From assembly GCA_030748415.1 (NCBI GenBank), contig JASMMA010000013.1, positions 1 to 64,000 of the forward strand: a stretch of DNA of 64,000 nt, in the 5' to 3' direction. Positions within the stretch are counted from its first letter, which is position 1. The number at the start of each line of letters is the position of its first letter. This stretch comes from Planctomycetota bacterium. Lineage in GTDB: Bacteria > Planctomycetota > UBA1135. Made by a program: the position numbers and the translations under genes. The notes beneath the pieces were generated by a model. It was given only the letters and a program-made list of their open reading frames with translations. It was not told where the DNA came from and ran no database searches. Positions 2,220-59,432 of the stretch are shown one piece after another.

Positions 2220-3269
2220 ATGACCGAAGTAACCGAACAAACCATCCGCAAAGTTCTCAGCAATGTCCAAGATCCCGACCAGGGCAAGGACATTGTTTCT
2301 CTCGGCTTTATTCAAAATATTGCCAGTTGTGGCGGTTCCGTCAAGGTCACCATTCAACTCAACACCGCCCCACGCCCCGCTGGCGATGAAATCCGCCGCC
2401 AAGCCCACACAGCTATCGCGGGCATAGAAGGTGTCCAGTCAGTAAATGTCGAGCTAAAAGCCCTCGCACCCGAAGCTGCACCGCCGCCGGAGAACCCATC
2501 GGCCCTTGAAGGCAAACCAGTCAAAAATGTCATCGCTGTGACTTCTGGAAAAGGCGGTGTTGGGAAATCTACCTGCGCCGTAAACCTCGCGGCGGCACTT
2601 ACCGCAACCGGCCACAAAGTGGGCCTGCTCGACGCCGACATATACGGCCCCAACATTCCTGTCATGATGGGCCTGAGCGGTCGTTTAAAAACAGAAGGCG
2701 GGAATAAAATCATTCCTAAAGAATCCCACGGAATCAAAACGATTTCGATTGGGTATCTCGTTGAAGATGGCACCCCCATCATGTGGCGTGGCCCCATGCT
2801 CCACAAAGCTCTGGAACAATTCTTTAAAGATGTGGAATGGGGCGAGTTAGATTTTCTCATCGTGGACATGCCTCCCGGAACCGGCGATGCGCAAATCTCT
2901 CTCGCTCAACTTGTTCCCCTATCAGGCGCCGTGGTCATCACCATGCCTCAAGAGGTGTCCCTTACGGATGTCCGCCGCGCAATCGGAATGTGCCAACAGG
3001 TTAAGTGTCCCATTTTGGGAGTCGCTGAAAACATGAGCGGGGACATCTTTGGCCACGGTGGCGGAGAAAAAACTGCGGAGCATTACGCAGTTCCATTCCT
3101 TGGCTCTATCCCTCTTGAACCTTCTGTTCGTAAAGGCGGAGATTCTGGAATTCCCATCGTCGTTGCAGAACCTGACAGTGAGACCTCACACCACTTTAAG
3201 GTACTAGCGGAAAATGTTTTGGTTGCTTTAGAAAAGCGGAAAAGCCTCGAGCTACCTGTTCTTCAGTAA
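2220..3269 (+). CDS. mrp: Mrp/NBP35-type P-loop ATPase (iron-sulfur carrier family), cysteine-poor
   Basis: A 349-aa Mrp/ApbC homologue, a family of ATPases that bind and deliver Fe-S clusters. Residues 1-85 are a MIP18/DUF59 domain and 86-103 a linker. The deviant Walker A motif GKGGVGKST spans 110-118, followed by the ATPase core with DMPPGTGD. The C-terminal CPxC pair that normally bridges a cluster between subunits is absent: the usual stretch between NMS and DIFG is reduced to a single G ([12 protein letters not shown], ~270-281). The conserved cysteine of the DUF59 domain is also replaced (TAPRPAG at 49-55 where TPACPL is typical). Cluster binding by the standard residues is therefore doubtful. 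It converges on the next gene with an 18-bp overlap. Confidence 0.9.
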
Positions 3270-3809
3270 TACTTTTAGGCGCGCGTTTTCCACAAGGGAA
3301 CGTGAAGCATCGGCTACTCGTTGACCATCTTCATGCCAAAGAAGGCGCCAACTCCCTGTGGCAACCTCTCCGAAATCCGCCACACCGTTTGTGTCTGTTA
3401 CCAAATCGTGCTCGGCTCCAAAAAAATCAATCGCACGAACATCTGCCCCAACAACGGGTTCACCTGAGTGCGAGGCCAGGTGCACAGACAAGAAGCCTGT
3501 CCTCTCGGGAATCAATTCTATCTTGGAATCTGTCTGGACAATTGGCGGGCTCTCCTCTTCGGCCTCAACCAACTTCGAGGCAGATGCTTCCACTTTCAAT
3601 CCTGTCTCAAAACTTGCCCCATCCGAGTTTTGTTTGCTCTGCGCTTGGGCCTGGGCACGGGCCTGGGCACGGGCCTGGGCACGGTCTTGGGCCTGGGCAC
3701 GGGCTTGGGCGTGAGGATCCGGCTCCACAGCAATTGCAGCCCACAAAAGGAGCAAAGTGAAAGGAATTCCTCCTTTCAACACCGCACTAGGCTCCAAATG
3801 GCTCAACAT
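3252..3809 (-). CDS. Secreted protein with Ala-Gln/Ala-Arg repeats and a carboxypeptidase-regulatory-like domain
   Basis: 185 aa, function unknown. A basic N-terminus and a hydrophobic run (IPFTLLLLWAAIAV, about residues 15-28) suggest a signal peptide. Residues ~33-58 are a low-complexity AQARAQ tract encoded by 12-bp tandem repeats. The C-terminal ~85 residues read like a carboxypeptidase-regulatory-like (transthyretin-type) beta sandwich: SGEPVVGADVRAIDFFG, then TDTNGVADFGEVATGSWRL. The same fold is repeated many times in the divergently placed gene that starts at 3870, so the two may act at the cell surface or in the periplasm together. Confidence 0.6.
   Translation of the reverse strand: MLSHLEPSAVLKGGIPFTLLLLWAAIAVEPDPHAQARAQAQDRAQARAQARAQAQAQSKQNSDGASFETGLKVEASASKLVEAEEESPPIVQTDSKIELIPERTGFLSVHLASHSGEPVVGADVRAIDFFGAEHDLVTDTNGVADFGEVATGSWRLLWHEDGQRVADASRSLVENARLKVLLKNR
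3641..3711. repeat. 12-bp tandem repeat tract
   Basis: About six imperfect copies of GGCCTGGGCACG (plus-strand reading) encode the AQAR/AQAQ tract of the protein at 3252-3809. The unit is a multiple of three, so changes in copy number would lengthen or shorten the tract without a frameshift. Confidence 0.8.
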
Positions 3810-3869
3810 TCCAAGATTCTATAAAAAACACACCGATTGTTTCCCCAACGGTACCGTAGTAAACCTGAC

Positions 3870-6800
3870 ATGCGAAAACTTGCCCTCCCCTTTCTTGTTG
3901 CCCTCGTTGCCCTGCTGGCTTGGATTCTGACCAGGGAAACCGAATCCGTACAAACCCCAGGCCCAGAACTCATTCCCCCAACGGCAAGCGCGCCCAACTC
4001 GGCCCAAGTTGAAATTGAAGCCCCCAGCACCACTCGGTCGAAATCCACTGGCAAAGTTTTTAATAACCGGATAGAAAAAGATGGCGCTGGTAGCCACATG
4101 CTGGGCGGGCAGGTGATTGATGAGAACAGCGACCCCGTTCCTGGCGCCTGGGTTGCTGCCTATTCCGTACCTTTCCCTTTGATGGATTTTGAAAAAGAGA
4201 TTGATGAGTTTTTCGATAAGCCACTTAAGTTAGACCTCGAGCCCATCGCCTCTACCTTCGCTGACGACAGGGGCCAGTTTGATTTGCTTGGGCTTCATGG
4301 GAGAAAAGTTTATGTCACTGCTCGCAGTTTCCAACGCCTGAGCCCTCGCCGACAAATGATTCCTGCAGGCGCACTCGATCAAAAAGGTGGGGTCATCATT
4401 CGCACTGTTCCTGCTGCAAGCCTTGAGGGCACCGTCCTTGATTCCGAAGGAAATCCTGTCCCCGGGGCCGAGGTCTTGATTGGTCCTGGAATCAAGCAAC
4501 TCCTTGCAGCTTTCCGCAATCGGAGTTTTTTCATGGAGAAAGCCCTCACCGATGCTTCGGGTCATTATCAAATTGAGGCCATCCCTGCCCGAACTGCGCT
4601 CACATTAAATGCTTATCGTGGCGGCGTGGAAGCGGGAATGAGCGAACTTGCCCCCATTCCTGCATTGGCAAACGCTAACAAGAACATTGAAATGTTTCCC
4701 CTCGGCTCTTTGTCTGGAGAAGTCTGGGATTCAAAAGACAAGGCCTCTTTGGGAAGTGATATCGTTGCTATCCCATTAGATCTCCGGCTCCTTATTCCTT
4801 TTGTTCGGGACCCAAATGTTTGGGTGAGTGTTGCTCGTGGTGGCGGACGCTACCGCTTTAACAAACTCCCTCACGCTTTATATCTTCTCATCGCACAGGG
4901 TCGTGATGGGCGATCTGCTCCCGTAATGGCTCGAGTGTCCGGCGAGGACGCCAAAGCTCCCCGCTTGGTTATCCAAAACGAAAAAATCGTCCAGGGAAGG
5001 GTAATCAATGGAAATGGAAAACCAATTTCTCAAGCAATTGTTCGCCTACAAAGCATTCCCGTTGGGGAAGATGAAAATCGAGAAGAAAGTTGGAACCAAC
5101 CTGGCGGTTTGTTTTTAGAAGCCGCCCGAGAAATCCTTCCCCTTCTTCTTCCCGGTTCAGCCTTTGCTCAAACGGATGGCAATGGAAACTTTCGAATTCC
5201 CGCCTGGGACAATGCCCGGCTCCGCGTTGAAGCTCACGGTTATAAAAATTACGACTTTAGTTTAAGCAGGCTCAAAGAAGACAAAAGGCCTGTCTTGCAA
5301 ATATGGAAACCTGGGAGCGTGGAGGGCAGGCTTCAAAACAAAACAAATGAGAAACCCATTACGATGGGAGTCGCCCGAATGGGTTCCAGATCCCAAAGTG
5401 AATCCTTTATTGCGCTCGGCCCTAGCGAACTTGAATCTCTTGGTTATGTTGAGGGATCTTCGGAAAACTTACGAAAGGGCGGAAGGGCCAAAACACTTCC
5501 TGAAGGGGTCACTGATGAAGAACAACTGCTTCAGCCTACCCGAAGTTGGCGCGCACAAGCTTCCGAAATGGCCTGGGTGGATAATGAAAGGGGTACCTTC
5601 CGAATTGATAGCGTTCAACCTGGCACTTGGACCATAAAGGGCCAGGCGGAGGGTTTTCGAACGGAGACGGTGAAAAACATTTCAATCATTGAAGGTGAAG
5701 TAACAAAAGATGTCGTGATTTCGCTGGACCCCGGCGCAATTGTCCGAGGTCGAGTCGTTGATGCCGGAAACAGCCAACCCATTGGTGGGGCAGTTGTTTC
5801 AGTTGGGAGTGACGAGGAATCTGGGGCCATGGCTCTGTTTCAAGGAATGGGCGAACAAGTTGCAATCGACGAAACTGACCCCAGTGGCCATTTTGAAATC
5901 CGAGGGGCAGCCACCAAAGATAAATTCGTGCATGTTCTTGCCGATGGTTATGCAGCTGTCAGCCAAAAAATCCCACCTCTTGAGGAGGCTGAAGTTCGGG
6001 AAGGCGTTCGAGTAGAAGTTCCGCTCGGGGGCACTTTATTTGGATTGGTCTCGGACCGACATGGCGCCCCTCTTCCCAATCGACTTGTTGGCGCACTTTC
6101 CATCCAAGCGAAGGACTTTCACCAAACCACCACTGATGAAAGTGGGATGTACCGCATTGAGAACATGCGTCCAGGCTCTTACTTCCTTATGACCGCTGAC
6201 CTGAACGACGAATCTCTGTTTTCCGGAGATGTCGCCCAGCTTCTTTCCGCGGGCAGAGTGTCAACGGGTGTTGTCAAAGAAGTGGGGGAAACTCAAATTG
6301 ATATCGTTGACCCATCCGCTGGCGGGTGTCGCGTAGAGGGTGTACTCGTCAATCAGGGAGAGCCCTGTCCGGGGGCAAATATCATTTTGATGGCCGTTGG
6401 CGGTACAGGTGGATTGAGCTTTGGGATGAACATGGCGCGAACAGATGAAAAGGGTGAATTCCTTTTCCCGAGTGTTGCTCCAGGAGATTACCGTGCTCAA
6501 ATCCATGCGCCTACTGCGAATTGGGATGGGAGTTTAGATATGGAGGTCATGGATGCCGCTGAAGATTTCGTTTTCCTAGAGGTTCCTATTGGCGTTGTTC
6601 GTGGCCGTGTTATTTCCCAGGAATCGGGCGCGCCAATCAATAATATGTCCGTTCGACTTAATCGAGTGGATGGTGGAAGTGGTGGATTTGCAGCTATTTT
6701 TGGATCACCGATGGGCCGAGGCGATTGGGAATCCACTGATGAGAATGGAAACTTCTTTTTCGAAAATGTAGCCCCTGGAAGATACAAAATAAAAGTAGAT

Positions 6801-55487: not shown

Positions 55488-56336
55488 ATGGTGAAGCAGA
55501 AGCAAGGTCGAAAAAAGCTAAAGGGCAAGGCACGCAAGTGGACTGCCAAGACAGCAAGCAAATATGCGCTCTATGAATCTGCGGTTTACGACCCTGATTC
55601 CGATTTAGATTTCTTGCAGCGGATTTTTGAAGAGAAAAACTACCCATCCCCCATGGTTCTACGGGAAGACTTTGCCGGCACTTGCCTCTTGGGGGCGATT
55701 TGGGCCAATAGCCATGACGAGCGAACGGCTTGGTGCGTGGACCTAGACCCAGAACCTCTTACTTATGGCTTGAAGAATCACTTCCCCAAGATTGGAGATG
55801 CGGTCAAGCGGGTTACACAGTTGGAAGAAAATGTGCTGAGTGTGGAAACACCCCAAGCGGATGTTTTAACGGCGTTCAACTTCTCCTATTGGATTTTCAA
55901 AGAGCGGGCCACGATGCTCAGTTATTTCAAGCGCGCCTACAGTTCCATCAATGATGGCGGCGCCTTCGTTTTAGATATTCAAGGTGGCCCTGATTGCCAA
56001 ATTGAAACAGAAGAAGAGCGAGAAGAAGATGGCTTCTATTACATTTGGCGCACCCACGCCATGGATGCCATCACCGGCGATACCCGTTGCTCCATTAGTT
56101 TTAAATTTGCTGACGGCTCCAGAATGGAAGAAGCCTTCGTTTACGAATGGCGCCTCTGGCACTTGACCGAGCTCCGAGATATTTTGAGCGAAGCGGGTTT
56201 CAAAAATGTCGAAGTTTATTGGGAGGGTGCCGATGAAGATGGGGAAGGTGATGGCGATTTTCAACTTACCCACACCGCCGAGAACGAAGAGGCGTGGATT
56301 GCCTACATCGTTGCCTGGAAAAACGGGAAACCCTAA
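55488..56336 (+). CDS. Class I SAM-dependent methyltransferase
   Basis: 282 aa from the ATG at 55488; a longer open frame upstream would run into the prolyl oligopeptidase gene. The N-terminus is very basic (KQKQGRKKLKGKARKW). The cofactor region is less canonical: REDFAGTCLLGAIWA stands where motif I (xDxGxGxG) lies, then VDLDPEPLTYGL and AFVLDIQGG. The target is unknown; the basic tail suggests a nucleic acid or an acidic partner. It converges with the msr gene by 4 bp. Confidence 0.8.
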   Translation: MVKQKQGRKKLKGKARKWTAKTASKYALYESAVYDPDSDLDFLQRIFEEKNYPSPMVLREDFAGTCLLGAIWANSHDERTAWCVDLDPEPLTYGLKNHFPKIGDAVKRVTQLEENVLSVETPQADVLTAFNFSYWIFKERATMLSYFKRAYSSINDGGAFVLDIQGGPDCQIETEEEREEDGFYYIWRTHAMDAITGDTRCSISFKFADGSRMEEAFVYEWRLWHLTELRDILSEAGFKNVEVYWEGADEDGEGDGDFQLTHTAENEEAWIAYIVAWKNGKP

Positions 56337-57274
56337 AGCTTGCAGGCGGGGACAATCCCCCTTTTTTCGTAATACCGCTGATGGTATTCCTCAGCCGGCC
56401 AAAATTGCGTGGCGGGCAGGACTTGGGTCACGATAGGGTTTTCATGCTCACCCGATGATTCCATTTTTTGAATTGCGGTCTTTGCAATCCTTTCTTGTTC
56501 AGGATTATGGAAAAAAATAACTGAACGATATTGAGTGCCGACATTGGGCCCCTGTCGATTCGGAGTCGTGGGGTCATGGTTTTGAAAAAAAATCTCGAGC
56601 AACCCCTTGAAAGAGATGCGGGAAGGATCGAACCGGATTTGAATCGCCTCAGCGTGGCCGGTGCCGTCAGAACATACTTCTTCATAGGTAGGGTTTTCCG
56701 AAGTGCCTCCTGAGTACCCGACTACTGTGTCTAAAACACCGTCAACCTGACGGAAAAGGGATTCCACCCCCCAGAATCAGCCGCTGCCAAATGTTGCAGC
56801 GGCCCATGAATTGGTGGAGTTAAGTTCATCGGAAGAAGTGAAATTCATCGCAGCAGAGTTAATACAGAATCGATTACCAGTTGGGGGCGGGCCATCGGTG
56901 AAAACATGGCCAAGGTGTCCGTCACATTTTGCGCAGCGCACTTCGATGCGCAGGGTCCCTAGGGAGTTGTCTTGGTGTCTAGTGATTGCATTCTCATTCC
57001 ATGGCATAGTAAATGCGGGCCAGCCACAACCCGAATTATATTTTTCAGCCGACCTAAAAAGTGGAGCATTGCACCCTGCACACGAATATTCACCTTCCTC
57101 AAAGTGACGGTCGAACCGGTTTTCAAATGGAGCCTCAGTTCCGGCCTCTCGCAAAATGTGATATTGCTCGGGCGTGAGTTTTTCTTTCCAGTCTGATTCG
57201 TTCATTGCCATTGGGTCCTGGGCGGTGGTGCATCCAATTAGGAGACAAATAGCAAGAATGGAAGTATTTTTCAT
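56333..57274 (-). CDS. msrBA: Probable selenoprotein: MsrB-MsrA fusion lipoprotein with in-frame TGA (Sec166)
   Basis: 313 codons if the TGA at 56779-56777 is read through. A lipobox (LLIGC, C15) leads to an MsrB domain with zinc cysteines C65, C68, C114, C117 and catalytic C137 (RFCINSAAMNF). It continues through ATFGSG, then TGA at codon 166, then FWGVESLFRQVDGV and the rest of an MsrA domain (GYSGGTSENPTYEEV, GTGHAEAIQIRFDP). In MsrA the residue at the TGA is the catalytic Cys of GCFWG, so selenocysteine is the natural reading. TGA ends many other genes here, so the code is not globally changed. MsrB reduces Met-R-sulfoxide and MsrA the S form. A nonsense mutation remains possible. Confidence 0.75.
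56739..56753 (-). promoter_or_regulatory. Candidate bacterial SECIS hairpin downstream of the msrBA TGA
   Basis: 24-38 nt after the TGA the transcript can fold CCGTC-AGGTT-GACGG: a perfect 5-bp stem (6 bp with the closing A-T) and a loop carrying G at its second position. Bacterial SECIS elements lie within the coding sequence shortly after the UGA and have a G near the start of the apical loop; the E. coli fdhF loop is AGGTCT. The position and loop are compatible, but no SelB-binding data can be inferred. Confidence 0.5.
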
Positions 57275-57688
57275 TTACCGGGAGGCCATATAGAGAGCAA
57301 CCCCGCCAACCGCAACAAGAAGAAGTAATCCAAGCGCAAGGGATGCACCAAGCGGATCGGAGCTCATACCGATATTGGTTCGGTAAGGGTCAAAATCAAG
57401 AGCCTGGTCTTTCTTTTTTGCAGAAGACGGGCGTTTGAGTCGAATGCGGCGCCCGTCAAAAATCTCAACGAGTTCCCAGCCCGCACGAGCTTCTTGATTC
57501 AAAATTTCTGCACGCTTTTCTGGCTTCAGGAATATGTTCCCATTCGAGCGCAGAAATTTAAATTCCCAACCACCTTCAAGTTCAGCTTGTGTGTATTGTG
57601 TCATTTGTTCTTCTTCGTGGGCACGCTTTTGAACTTCGGCAGCAATGCTGGCCGTAGTTGCGGCAGTGGTGGCAGGAATGTGAGTCAT
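57275..57688 (-). CDS. Small membrane-anchored protein of unknown function
   Basis: 137 aa (an internal ATG at codon 29, MTQYTQAELEGGWEF, is an alternative start). The central part GGWEFKFLRSNGNIF...LNQEARAGWELVEIFDGRRIRLKR (given in part) resembles the short DUF4177-type beta domain, in which a similar GWELV occurs. A C-terminal membrane span follows (GASLALGLLLLVAVGGVALYM). Its stop codon abuts the msrBA start, so it is the first gene of that operon. Confidence 0.6.
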   Translation of the reverse strand: MTHIPATTAATTASIAAEVQKRAHEEEQMTQYTQAELEGGWEFKFLRSNGNIFLKPEKRAEILNQEARAGWELVEIFDGRRIRLKRPSSAKKKDQALDFDPYRTNIGMSSDPLGASLALGLLLLVAVGGVALYMASR

Positions 57689-57731: not shown

Positions 57732-59432
57732 TCACGCTTCGATTTCGCGGGCGGGACCAGAGCCTTTTGGCACACGAATGTCCTCAACGAGCTGCTGGAT
57801 GGCGGAGGAGGGCGGTGGCGAAAGCTGACAAACTGCGCCAGCAACAAGGAAGTTCAGCATCATGCCAATCGTGCCAATACCCTCAGGAGAAATCCCCCAC
57901 CACCAATGTTCGGGAGTAGAAAGCTCAGGGTGGAGGAATTTGAACCACAAAATGTAGCCTGCCGTAAGTGCAATCCCGCAAACCATTCCGGAAATGGCAC
58001 CCGCTCGATTCATCCGCGTGCTGAAAATGCCCATGATGAGCACGGGAAAGAATGATGATGCTGCCAGCCCAAAAGCAAAGGCAACCACTTCGGCAACAAA
58101 GCCCGGTGGATGAATACCAAACCAACCCGCAACACAAACTGCGACGCCGGCGCTAATTCGCGCGGCGAGGAGCTCCCCTTTTTCAGAAATCGTTGGCCGA
58201 ATAGAGCGCTTCAACAAATCATGACTTACGGCTGAGGACACAACAAGCAAAAGCCCTGCAGCAGTTGAGAGGGCTGCAGCCAGACCACCAGCTGCAACAA
58301 GGCCAACGACCCAATCCGGAAGGCCAGCTATTTCAGGGTTCGCCAAAACCATGATGTCTTTGTGCACGGTGAGCTCATTTTCGATTGGCGAATCGGGGCC
58401 AACATATTGAATGAGTCCATCTCCGTTGTGATCCTCGTGCTTTAGTAAACCTGTTGTCTCCCATTTTTGAAACCAATCGGGCATTTCTTTGTACGGCTGT
58501 TCACTGACCGTCATAAGAAGGTTGGTGCGGGAAAAGGCGGCAACTGCGGGAGCAGCGGTGTAAAGAAGTGCAATAAAAATGAGTGCCCAACCAACACTCT
58601 TTCGTGCGTCTCGCACTTTGGGAACGGTATAAAAACGGACAATCACATGAGGGAGACCAGCGGTCCCCACCATCAGCGCTGCGGTAATGAAAAATACATC
58701 CGTCATTGCGCGGGAACCATTGGTATAAGAAGCAAAACCCAAATCTCGGTGAAGGCTATTGAGCTTTTCTAACAAAGGAACCCCATCGGAGAGAGAACCC
58801 CCAAGGCCGAGTTGGGGAAGAGGGGTGTCCACCATTTGAATCGAAAGAAAAATGGCAGGAACAAGGTAGGCAAAAATCAAAACACAATACTGGGCAACTT
58901 GGGTGTAAGTAATGCCCTTCATCCCCCCAAGCACTGCGTAAAAGAAAACAATTCCCATTCCGATAAAGACGCCAGTTGTTGTATCTACTTCAAGGAAGCG
59001 AGACAGCACAATTCCAACTCCTTGCATTTGGCCACTAACATATGTGAACGAAACAAAGATGGCACAAATTACCGCCACAATCCTTGCGGCCGAAGACTCG
59101 TAACGGTCCCCCACAAAATCCGGGATGGTGAATTTCCCAAACTTTCGCAAATAAGGTGCGAGCAATAGAGCAAGCAAAACATAGCCACCTGTCCAACCCA
59201 TCAAATAGACCGAACCGTCGTAGCCTAAGAATGAAATCGCGCCTGCCATCGATATGAAAGAGGCCGCGCTCATCCAATCGGCAGCTGTAGCCATACCATT
59301 TGCAAGCGGGGGGACTCCGCCGCCAGCAACATAAAACTCACTCGTACTTCCTGCGCGACTCCAAACGGCAACTCCAATGTAGAGCGCGAATGAGAGCGCA
59401 ATTAGCGTGAATGTCCAGGCTTGAACATCCAT
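57732..59432 (-). CDS. Sodium:solute symporter (acetate/short-chain acid type)
   Basis: 566 aa, about 13 membrane spans. Family hallmarks are the N-terminal SRAGSTSEFYVAGGGVPPLANGMATAADWMSAASFI (in part) and GWTGGYVLLALLLAPYLRKFGKFTIPDFVGDRY (in part). Together with an adjacent DUF4212 subunit it fits the VC_2705-like branch of the solute:sodium symporter family, near ActP-type acetate permeases. An unusually long periplasmic loop (~310-350) carries a Ca2+-binding-like stretch HEDHNGDGLIQY (DxNxDG). The substrate is inferred, probably a monocarboxylate. Confidence 0.9.
   Translation of the reverse strand: MDVQAWTFTLIALSFALYIGVAVWSRAGSTSEFYVAGGGVPPLANGMATAADWMSAASFISMAGAISFLGYDGSVYLMGWTGGYVLLALLLAPYLRKFGKFTIPDFVGDRYESSAARIVAVICAIFVSFTYVSGQMQGVGIVLSRFLEVDTTTGVFIGMGIVFFYAVLGGMKGITYTQVAQYCVLIFAYLVPAIFLSIQMVDTPLPQLGLGGSLSDGVPLLEKLNSLHRDLGFASYTNGSRAMTDVFFITAALMVGTAGLPHVIVRFYTVPKVRDARKSVGWALIFIALLYTAAPAVAAFSRTNLLMTVSEQPYKEMPDWFQKWETTGLLKHEDHNGDGLIQYVGPDSPIENELTVHKDIMVLANPEIAGLPDWVVGLVAAGGLAAALSTAAGLLLVVSSAVSHDLLKRSIRPTISEKGELLAARISAGVAVCVAGWFGIHPPGFVAEVVAFAFGLAASSFFPVLIMGIFSTRMNRAGAISGMVCGIALTAGYILWFKFLHPELSTPEHWWWGISPEGIGTIGMMLNFLVAGAVCQLSPPPSSAIQQLVEDIRVPKGSGPAREIEA

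Follow-up and report, generated by a model that had tools for sequence, protein, structure and literature searches.

Selenoprotein forms of MsrA (PF01625), in which selenocysteine (Sec) takes the place of the catalytic Cys in a GUFWG/H motif, are established. An example is CoMsrA from Clostridium oremlandii, a protein of 209 amino acids with a catalytic domain, a C-terminal helical domain and one catalytic residue (PMC13188914, PMC4333827). The family has a table entry and text in PMC13188914, and members are also reported as nine GOS sequences (PMC2398784), in Syntrophobacter (PMC1794560), in marine invertebrates (PMC3473315) and in algae (PMC7539508, PMC6627142). A preliminary description of the locus studied here gave the range of single-domain Sec-MsrA as a few bacteria and algae, which is too narrow in view of the marine invertebrates and the ocean metagenomes. 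No Sec MsrB-MsrA fusion was found in the literature searched, which had most subscription papers outside its reach. Word searches of four main texts (PMC13188914, PMC2398784, PMC9312934 and PMC12013277) found neither 'MsrB' nor the phylum name, and MsrA is absent from the main text of PMC4807772, which treats Planctomycetes selenoproteins.

Fusions that involve either reductase are also known. The bifunctional MsrB/A family NF004042 (PRK05550) has the MsrB domain first. The structures 3e0m, 7e43 and 5fa9 hold both Msr activities in one chain, in the order A-B in the two alignments listed, and the three-domain PilB of Neisseria does so with a thioredoxin-like domain of its own (PMC6316033). The GST-MsrA double selenoprotein of Emiliania huxleyi places Sec-MsrA in a fusion too, although it is eukaryotic and its partner is GST, not MsrB (PMC7539508).

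The locus described here lies in a stretch of 64,000 nucleotides of a Planctomycetota genome (the window). Comparative evidence makes it very probable that the frame 57274-56333 is a genuine selenoprotein gene. Its product would share with CoMsrA the Sec in place of the catalytic Cys, and differs from it in having MsrB fused in front, a signal resembling that of lipoproteins, and Cys311 as a candidate resolving residue. It matches NF004042 over its full length and in domain order, but with TGA for the MsrA Cys codon; like the structures and PilB it combines both reductases in one chain, in the order B-A and without the thioredoxin-like domain of PilB. The Sec-MsrA family is therefore already known, and Sec MsrB-MsrA appears to be a new architecture, one that recurs in the phylum. 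It would place selenocysteine in a two-domain Met-sulfoxide repair enzyme that is apparently exported in the window's genus.

The gene and its in-frame TGA

The gene, its TGA, the Sec machinery, the conservation and the selection described below were computed. The features of the locus, all on the minus strand, are as follows.

57732..59432, minus: sodium:solute symporter gene, farther upstream; ends in TGA
57275..57688, minus: DUF4177 protein gene, upstream and co-directional; the msrBA ATG follows its TAA without a gap
56333..57274, minus: msrB-msrA(Sec) gene, stop TAG; predicted exported lipoprotein
57230..57274, minus: predicted signal peptide and lipobox (MKNTSILAICLLIGC, +1 Cys15), from a crude lipobox rule and reading by eye
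56813..57202, minus: MsrB (SelR) domain, residues 25-154; TIGR00357, 178.6 bits in the full protein (cut-off 113.05); PF01641
56360..56797, minus: MsrA (PMSR) domain, residues 160-305; TIGR00401, 202.5 bits (cut-off 108.1); PF01625
56777..56779, minus: in-frame TGA, read as selenocysteine, residue 166
56739..56753, minus: candidate bacterial SECIS hairpin CCGUCA-GGU-UGACGG, from a fold; 6 bp, 3-nt loop, UGA-to-loop distance 29 nt
56342..56344, minus: Cys311 at the C-terminal end (PACKL), putative resolving residue for Sec166

On translation, the frame from 57274 to 56333 has 313 codons and a sole internal stop, the TGA at 56779-56777. The residues on either side (...AATFGSG-*-FWGVESLF...) identify this codon, number 166, as that of the MsrA catalytic Cys. 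When the TGA is read as one residue, the full protein matches NF004042 with 371.9 bits (cut-off 330), and the separate halves score 190.8 and 146.8 bits, both below the cut-off. Mechanical ORF calling yields two pieces instead, one of 165 aa at 57274-56777 and one of 144 aa at 56767-56333, the latter being without the GxFW motif. The preliminary description was therefore right to place the TGA on the catalytic codon, as both the translation and an alignment of homologues bear out, and to say that standard annotation would split the gene and drop the catalytic residue. The window holds 58 in-frame TGAs between open frames (no fewer than 60 codons on the 5' side and 50 on the 3' side), among which that of msrBA alone was judged convincing by eye.

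The MsrB domain is intact, as had been claimed, with the motifs CAGC/CAKC, SGCGWPAF and RFCINS, the last containing Cys137; we take the Cys residues of CAGC/CAKC and Cys137 to have their usual roles. At the N-terminus, CLLIGC fits our crude, self-made lipobox rule, and a lipobox-like VLMGC is seen by eye in the relative from the same genus (G001). An AlphaFold model (4 sequences) was poor, with a mean pLDDT of 59.1, and was set aside.

Homologues, selection and distribution

In a first search for relatives, 30 loci were fetched from 61 genomes, and 29 of them cover the active site (L047 has MsrB only). The catalytic codon is TGA in 12 of the 29 and TGC or TGT in the other 17, and the alignments contain no further stop at any position; a second TGA of G004, included in a whole-genome count, falls outside the aligned stretch. 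The alternation of TGA and Cys looked for at this codon is thus present. G001, about 70% identical, keeps both the TGA and the gene order (symporter, DUF4177, msrBA) of the window's genome (G000), and G007, from another genus of the same family, also has TGA. A wider contig scan gave 1 TGA among 90 alignments covering the catalytic column, drawn from 96 loci (16 of other origin); its pattern contains the Cys, so the scan is biased against TGA forms, and one of its alignments (L057) is a spurious one of an MsrB-only gene. In an order-wide search of 154 genomes, 21 gave a match no weaker than E 1e-62, and TGA was present in 3 of these 21.

Over the 147 codons after the TGA, G000 and G001 differ at 27, 18 and 74 sites in codon positions 1, 2 and 3, with dN 0.16 and dS 2.08, and 108 of the 147 residues are identical. 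For the MsrB part the counts are 24, 22 and 77 differences in 131 codons, with dS not computable. The sequence comparison indicates purifying selection on the MsrA half that follows the TGA; the decay that would have spoken against a selenoprotein is not seen in this pair.

The distribution of the Sec form was followed with the DNA pattern GGNTGATTYTGGGGNRTNGAR (G-U-F-W-G-[VIM]-E), which occurs at 29 places in 28 of 392 genomes of the phylum; the control pattern, read backwards, occurs 0 times among the matches listed. When the frames were read, the 28 genomes gave 19 MsrB-MsrA fusions, 1 MsrA-MsrB (G289) and 8 single-domain proteins, numbers that are lower bounds because the pattern demands GUFWG[VIM]E. 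The fused form is spread over four family-level groups of Planctomycetota: f1, to which the window belongs, has 3 fusions, f23 has 14, and f71 and f48 have 1 each; one of the 19 is cut by a contig end (G105) and another is split over two contigs (G102). The gene of G289 (L190, contig C122) encodes Sec-MsrA followed by a complete MsrB, and its N-terminus is lipoprotein-like by eye.

These results bear on the most serious alternative, that the TGA is a true stop, leaving an MsrB-only lipoprotein and an MsrA half that is either dead or translated from the GTG at 56767 without its catalytic residue. Standard ORF calling does yield this split. However, the downstream product would be without the GxFW motif, the MsrA half has no other stop and is under the selection just described, and TGA recurs at the same codon in the 29-locus set and, by pattern, across the phylum, so that we regard a true stop as very improbable.

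The crude lipobox rule is matched by 2 of the 19 Sec MsrB-MsrA fusions, namely G000 and G001; among the 8 single-domain Sec-MsrAs, 6 match it. G174, G289 and G002 fail it and are lipoprotein-like by eye; by the same rule no export signal was found in the f23 fusions or in G007. The Sec-MsrBA of the window's genus is apparently exported, and most Sec fusions outside that genus look cytoplasmic.

The closest Cys form is that of G032 (L024), 61% identical, in a genome with SelB and a TGA-bearing DsbD, in which tRNA-Sec gave no match at 1e-8; it is possibly a Sec-to-Cys reversion. A quick tree of 77 MsrA domains (G105 was left out, a contig end having truncated its MsrA half) requires Sec to have been gained or lost 5 times. 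Strongly supported branches force 1 change only, so repeated origins of Sec are not established. It is worth adding that G018 has, beside its Sec-MsrA, a second MsrA (L058, contig C568) in which Ser (AGT) takes the catalytic position, ATFAAGSFWGVEST.

Selenocysteine machinery and the candidate SECIS hairpin

The window's genome assembly (2.46 Mb, 68 contigs, 90.6% complete) encodes all the components of the Sec system that were looked for, each over its cut-off: SelA (466 bits, NCBIfam cut-off 267.9), SelB (307.3, NCBIfam cut-off 242.25), SelD (305.9, cut-off 125, read through an in-frame TGA of its own) and a tRNA-Sec with anticodon UCA (71.1, gathering score 47). The genes for SelA, SelD and tRNA-Sec are clustered in about 5.2 kb, with selB on the same contig. 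Together with the TGA/Cys alternation and the purifying selection, these genes strongly support the earlier reading of the protein as a probable selenoprotein.

SelD (L018:4551-5585) is itself a predicted selenoprotein, with a TGA in ACSG-U-AAK, and adjoins tRNA-Sec at L018:5605-5700. The C-terminal part of known SelBs binds SECIS; SelB here (L017:6513-8432) matches its model well over the first 361 positions, and its C-terminal part is divergent and matches weakly.

The same genes argue against a second alternative, in which the TGA is read as another amino acid, such as Trp, Cys or Gly, through code reassignment or programmed readthrough. The frame would indeed be open under any such reading. 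However, TGA is a normal stop in this genome, ending 22 of the window's 39 mechanically called ORFs that reach 250 aa, the Sec system is complete, and the aligned alternatives at the codon are Cys, bar the one Ser paralogue; this reading is still less probable than a true stop. The least probable of all is a sequencing or assembly error that turned TGC or TGT into TGA: the same TGA in G001 makes an error unlikely, TGA is common to independent genomes that include G007, and TAA and TAG were not seen at the column in the 29-locus or wider-scan alignments.

Selenocysteine therefore remains the preferred reading, and the machinery was also surveyed in 30 Sec-MsrA genomes (the 28 from the pattern search, G018 and G025). 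tRNA-Sec is over the cut-off in 28 of the 30, the exceptions being G018 and G289, and only barely so in G368 (48.7 against 47 bits). SelB is likewise over its cut-off in 28 (not G018 or G374). Neither was found over the cut-off in G018, which is 75% complete; in G289 (80% complete) tRNA-Sec gave no match at 1e-8, and SelB is present. Many f23 genomes have a second, weaker match of about 49-52 bits, which may be a second tRNA-Sec or another long-arm tRNA. The Sec trait fails as a separator of Sec from Cys forms: tRNA-Sec also scores above its cut-off in 16 of the 18 genomes whose top MsrBA match has Cys, so that the two forms coexist among Sec-decoding bacteria.

A bacterial SECIS model had been suggested as a further check, and here the outcome is divided. 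The published geometric rules ask for a loop of 3-9 nt, a stem of 4-16 bp, G at the first two positions of the loop and a spacing of 16-37 nt (PMC13188914), and the window hairpin lies within all four. Its single-gene statistics are weak, with a dinucleotide z of -0.14 and a synonymous-shuffle p of 0.07, and 584 of 5000 synonymous shuffles do as well as the stem of the fusion trio; taken alone, the hairpin of this gene is within chance. The same shuffle test gives p 0.008 for G001 and 0.004 for G007, and 8 of the 27 Sec loci tested reach p < 0.05. The Cys homologue G032 retains the trio's stem (7/7 pairs), so the stem is partly a consequence of the protein motif.

Nine single-domain Sec-MsrAs of the window's family have a different stem, of 9 bp, with 79 of 81 cells paired against a synonymous mean of 69.1, a value attained in 0 of 5000 shuffles; this stem and that of the trio were picked after the folds had been viewed, and the shuffles ignore relatedness. 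In 17 Cys homologues, 81 of 153 cells of this 9-bp stem are paired (mean 76.8). The stem of the nine relatives is thus beyond chance, and downstream hairpins therefore look selected in the family, the window's element being a candidate. The predicted folds of f23 showed no G at the loop start, so that the SECIS rule is without support there.

Proposed mechanism and a possible DsbD-like partner

In known MsrA the catalytic residue attacks the sulfoxide to give a sulfenic acid, and a resolving Cys and a reductant recycle the enzyme (PMC13188914). In the scheme proposed here, selenium incorporation, export, activity, chemistry and electron donor are all predictions. SelB with Sec-tRNA(Sec) would decode UGA 166 as selenocysteine, aided by the SECIS hairpin just downstream, and the readthrough product would be the full-length exported lipoprotein. 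Outside the cytoplasm, its MsrB domain (Cys137) would reduce Met-R-sulfoxide in proteins and its MsrA domain (Sec166) Met-S-sulfoxide. Sec166 would attack the sulfoxide to give a selenenic acid, which Cys311 would most likely resolve to a selenenylsulfide. A membrane thiol reductase would then regenerate the enzyme, plausibly a DsbD-like protein that is itself a predicted Sec carrier.

The proposed role of Cys311 draws on the distribution of the C-terminal Cys. It is present in 15 of the 18 Sec MsrB-MsrA fusions whose C-terminal end can be read (not in G174, G007 or G374), being kept in G001 and also in the Cys form of G032, and in 1 of the 8 single-domain Sec-MsrAs of the pattern search. These counts suggest that the fusion most likely uses a Sec-Cys pair, and that the single-domain forms most likely use a one-residue scheme like that of CoMsrA. 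The Sec and Cys, fused and unfused forms, in both orders and with and without the C-terminal Cys, amount to a natural experiment on why the enzyme keeps selenium. Mechanical annotation breaks such genes, and the catalytic residue is lost with it.

If the enzyme is exported, its reducing power has to reach it across the membrane. The sole DsbD_TM match found in G000 (L195:970-2760; contig C65, about 2333-4123) is a protein with DsbD_TM and thioredoxin-like domains that reads YLLVNFTGYT-TGA-VNC, with the TGA at the first Cys of the thioredoxin-like CxxC (U-V-N-C); the likely donor would therefore itself be a selenoprotein. PMC13188914 already names thiol:disulfide interchange proteins with UxxC among predicted selenoproteins. 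Of the 30 loci of this protein that were fetched, including that of G000, 22 have TGA at the codon and 8 have Cys.

Counting genomes with a match that reaches the codon, TGA is found in all 17 that carry a Sec fusion (its position was checked in 10 of them), in 10 of the 13 with a Cys form and in 3 of the 9 with a single-domain Sec-MsrA. DsbD gave no match in G289, in 2 of the 19 genomes with Sec fusions or in 5 of the 18 with Cys forms, and the match in G023 stops short of the codon. This co-occurrence is no more than suggestive of a special link between Sec-DsbD and Sec-MsrBA.

A selenium relay, in which the UxxC DsbD-like transmembrane reductase passes electrons to the exported Sec-MsrB-MsrA lipoprotein and one selenoprotein reduces another across the envelope, is possible but doubtful. 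We had rated it slightly higher, and lowered the estimate because 12 of the 17 Sec-fusion genomes with TGA-DsbD belong to f23, where the crude rule found no export signal; the relay cannot hold for fusions that stay cytoplasmic. Its best case is the window's genus, since G000 and G001 both have a lipobox-bearing Sec-MsrBA and a TGA-bearing DsbD, and with this partner a selenium-to-selenium electron relay across the membrane becomes directly testable.
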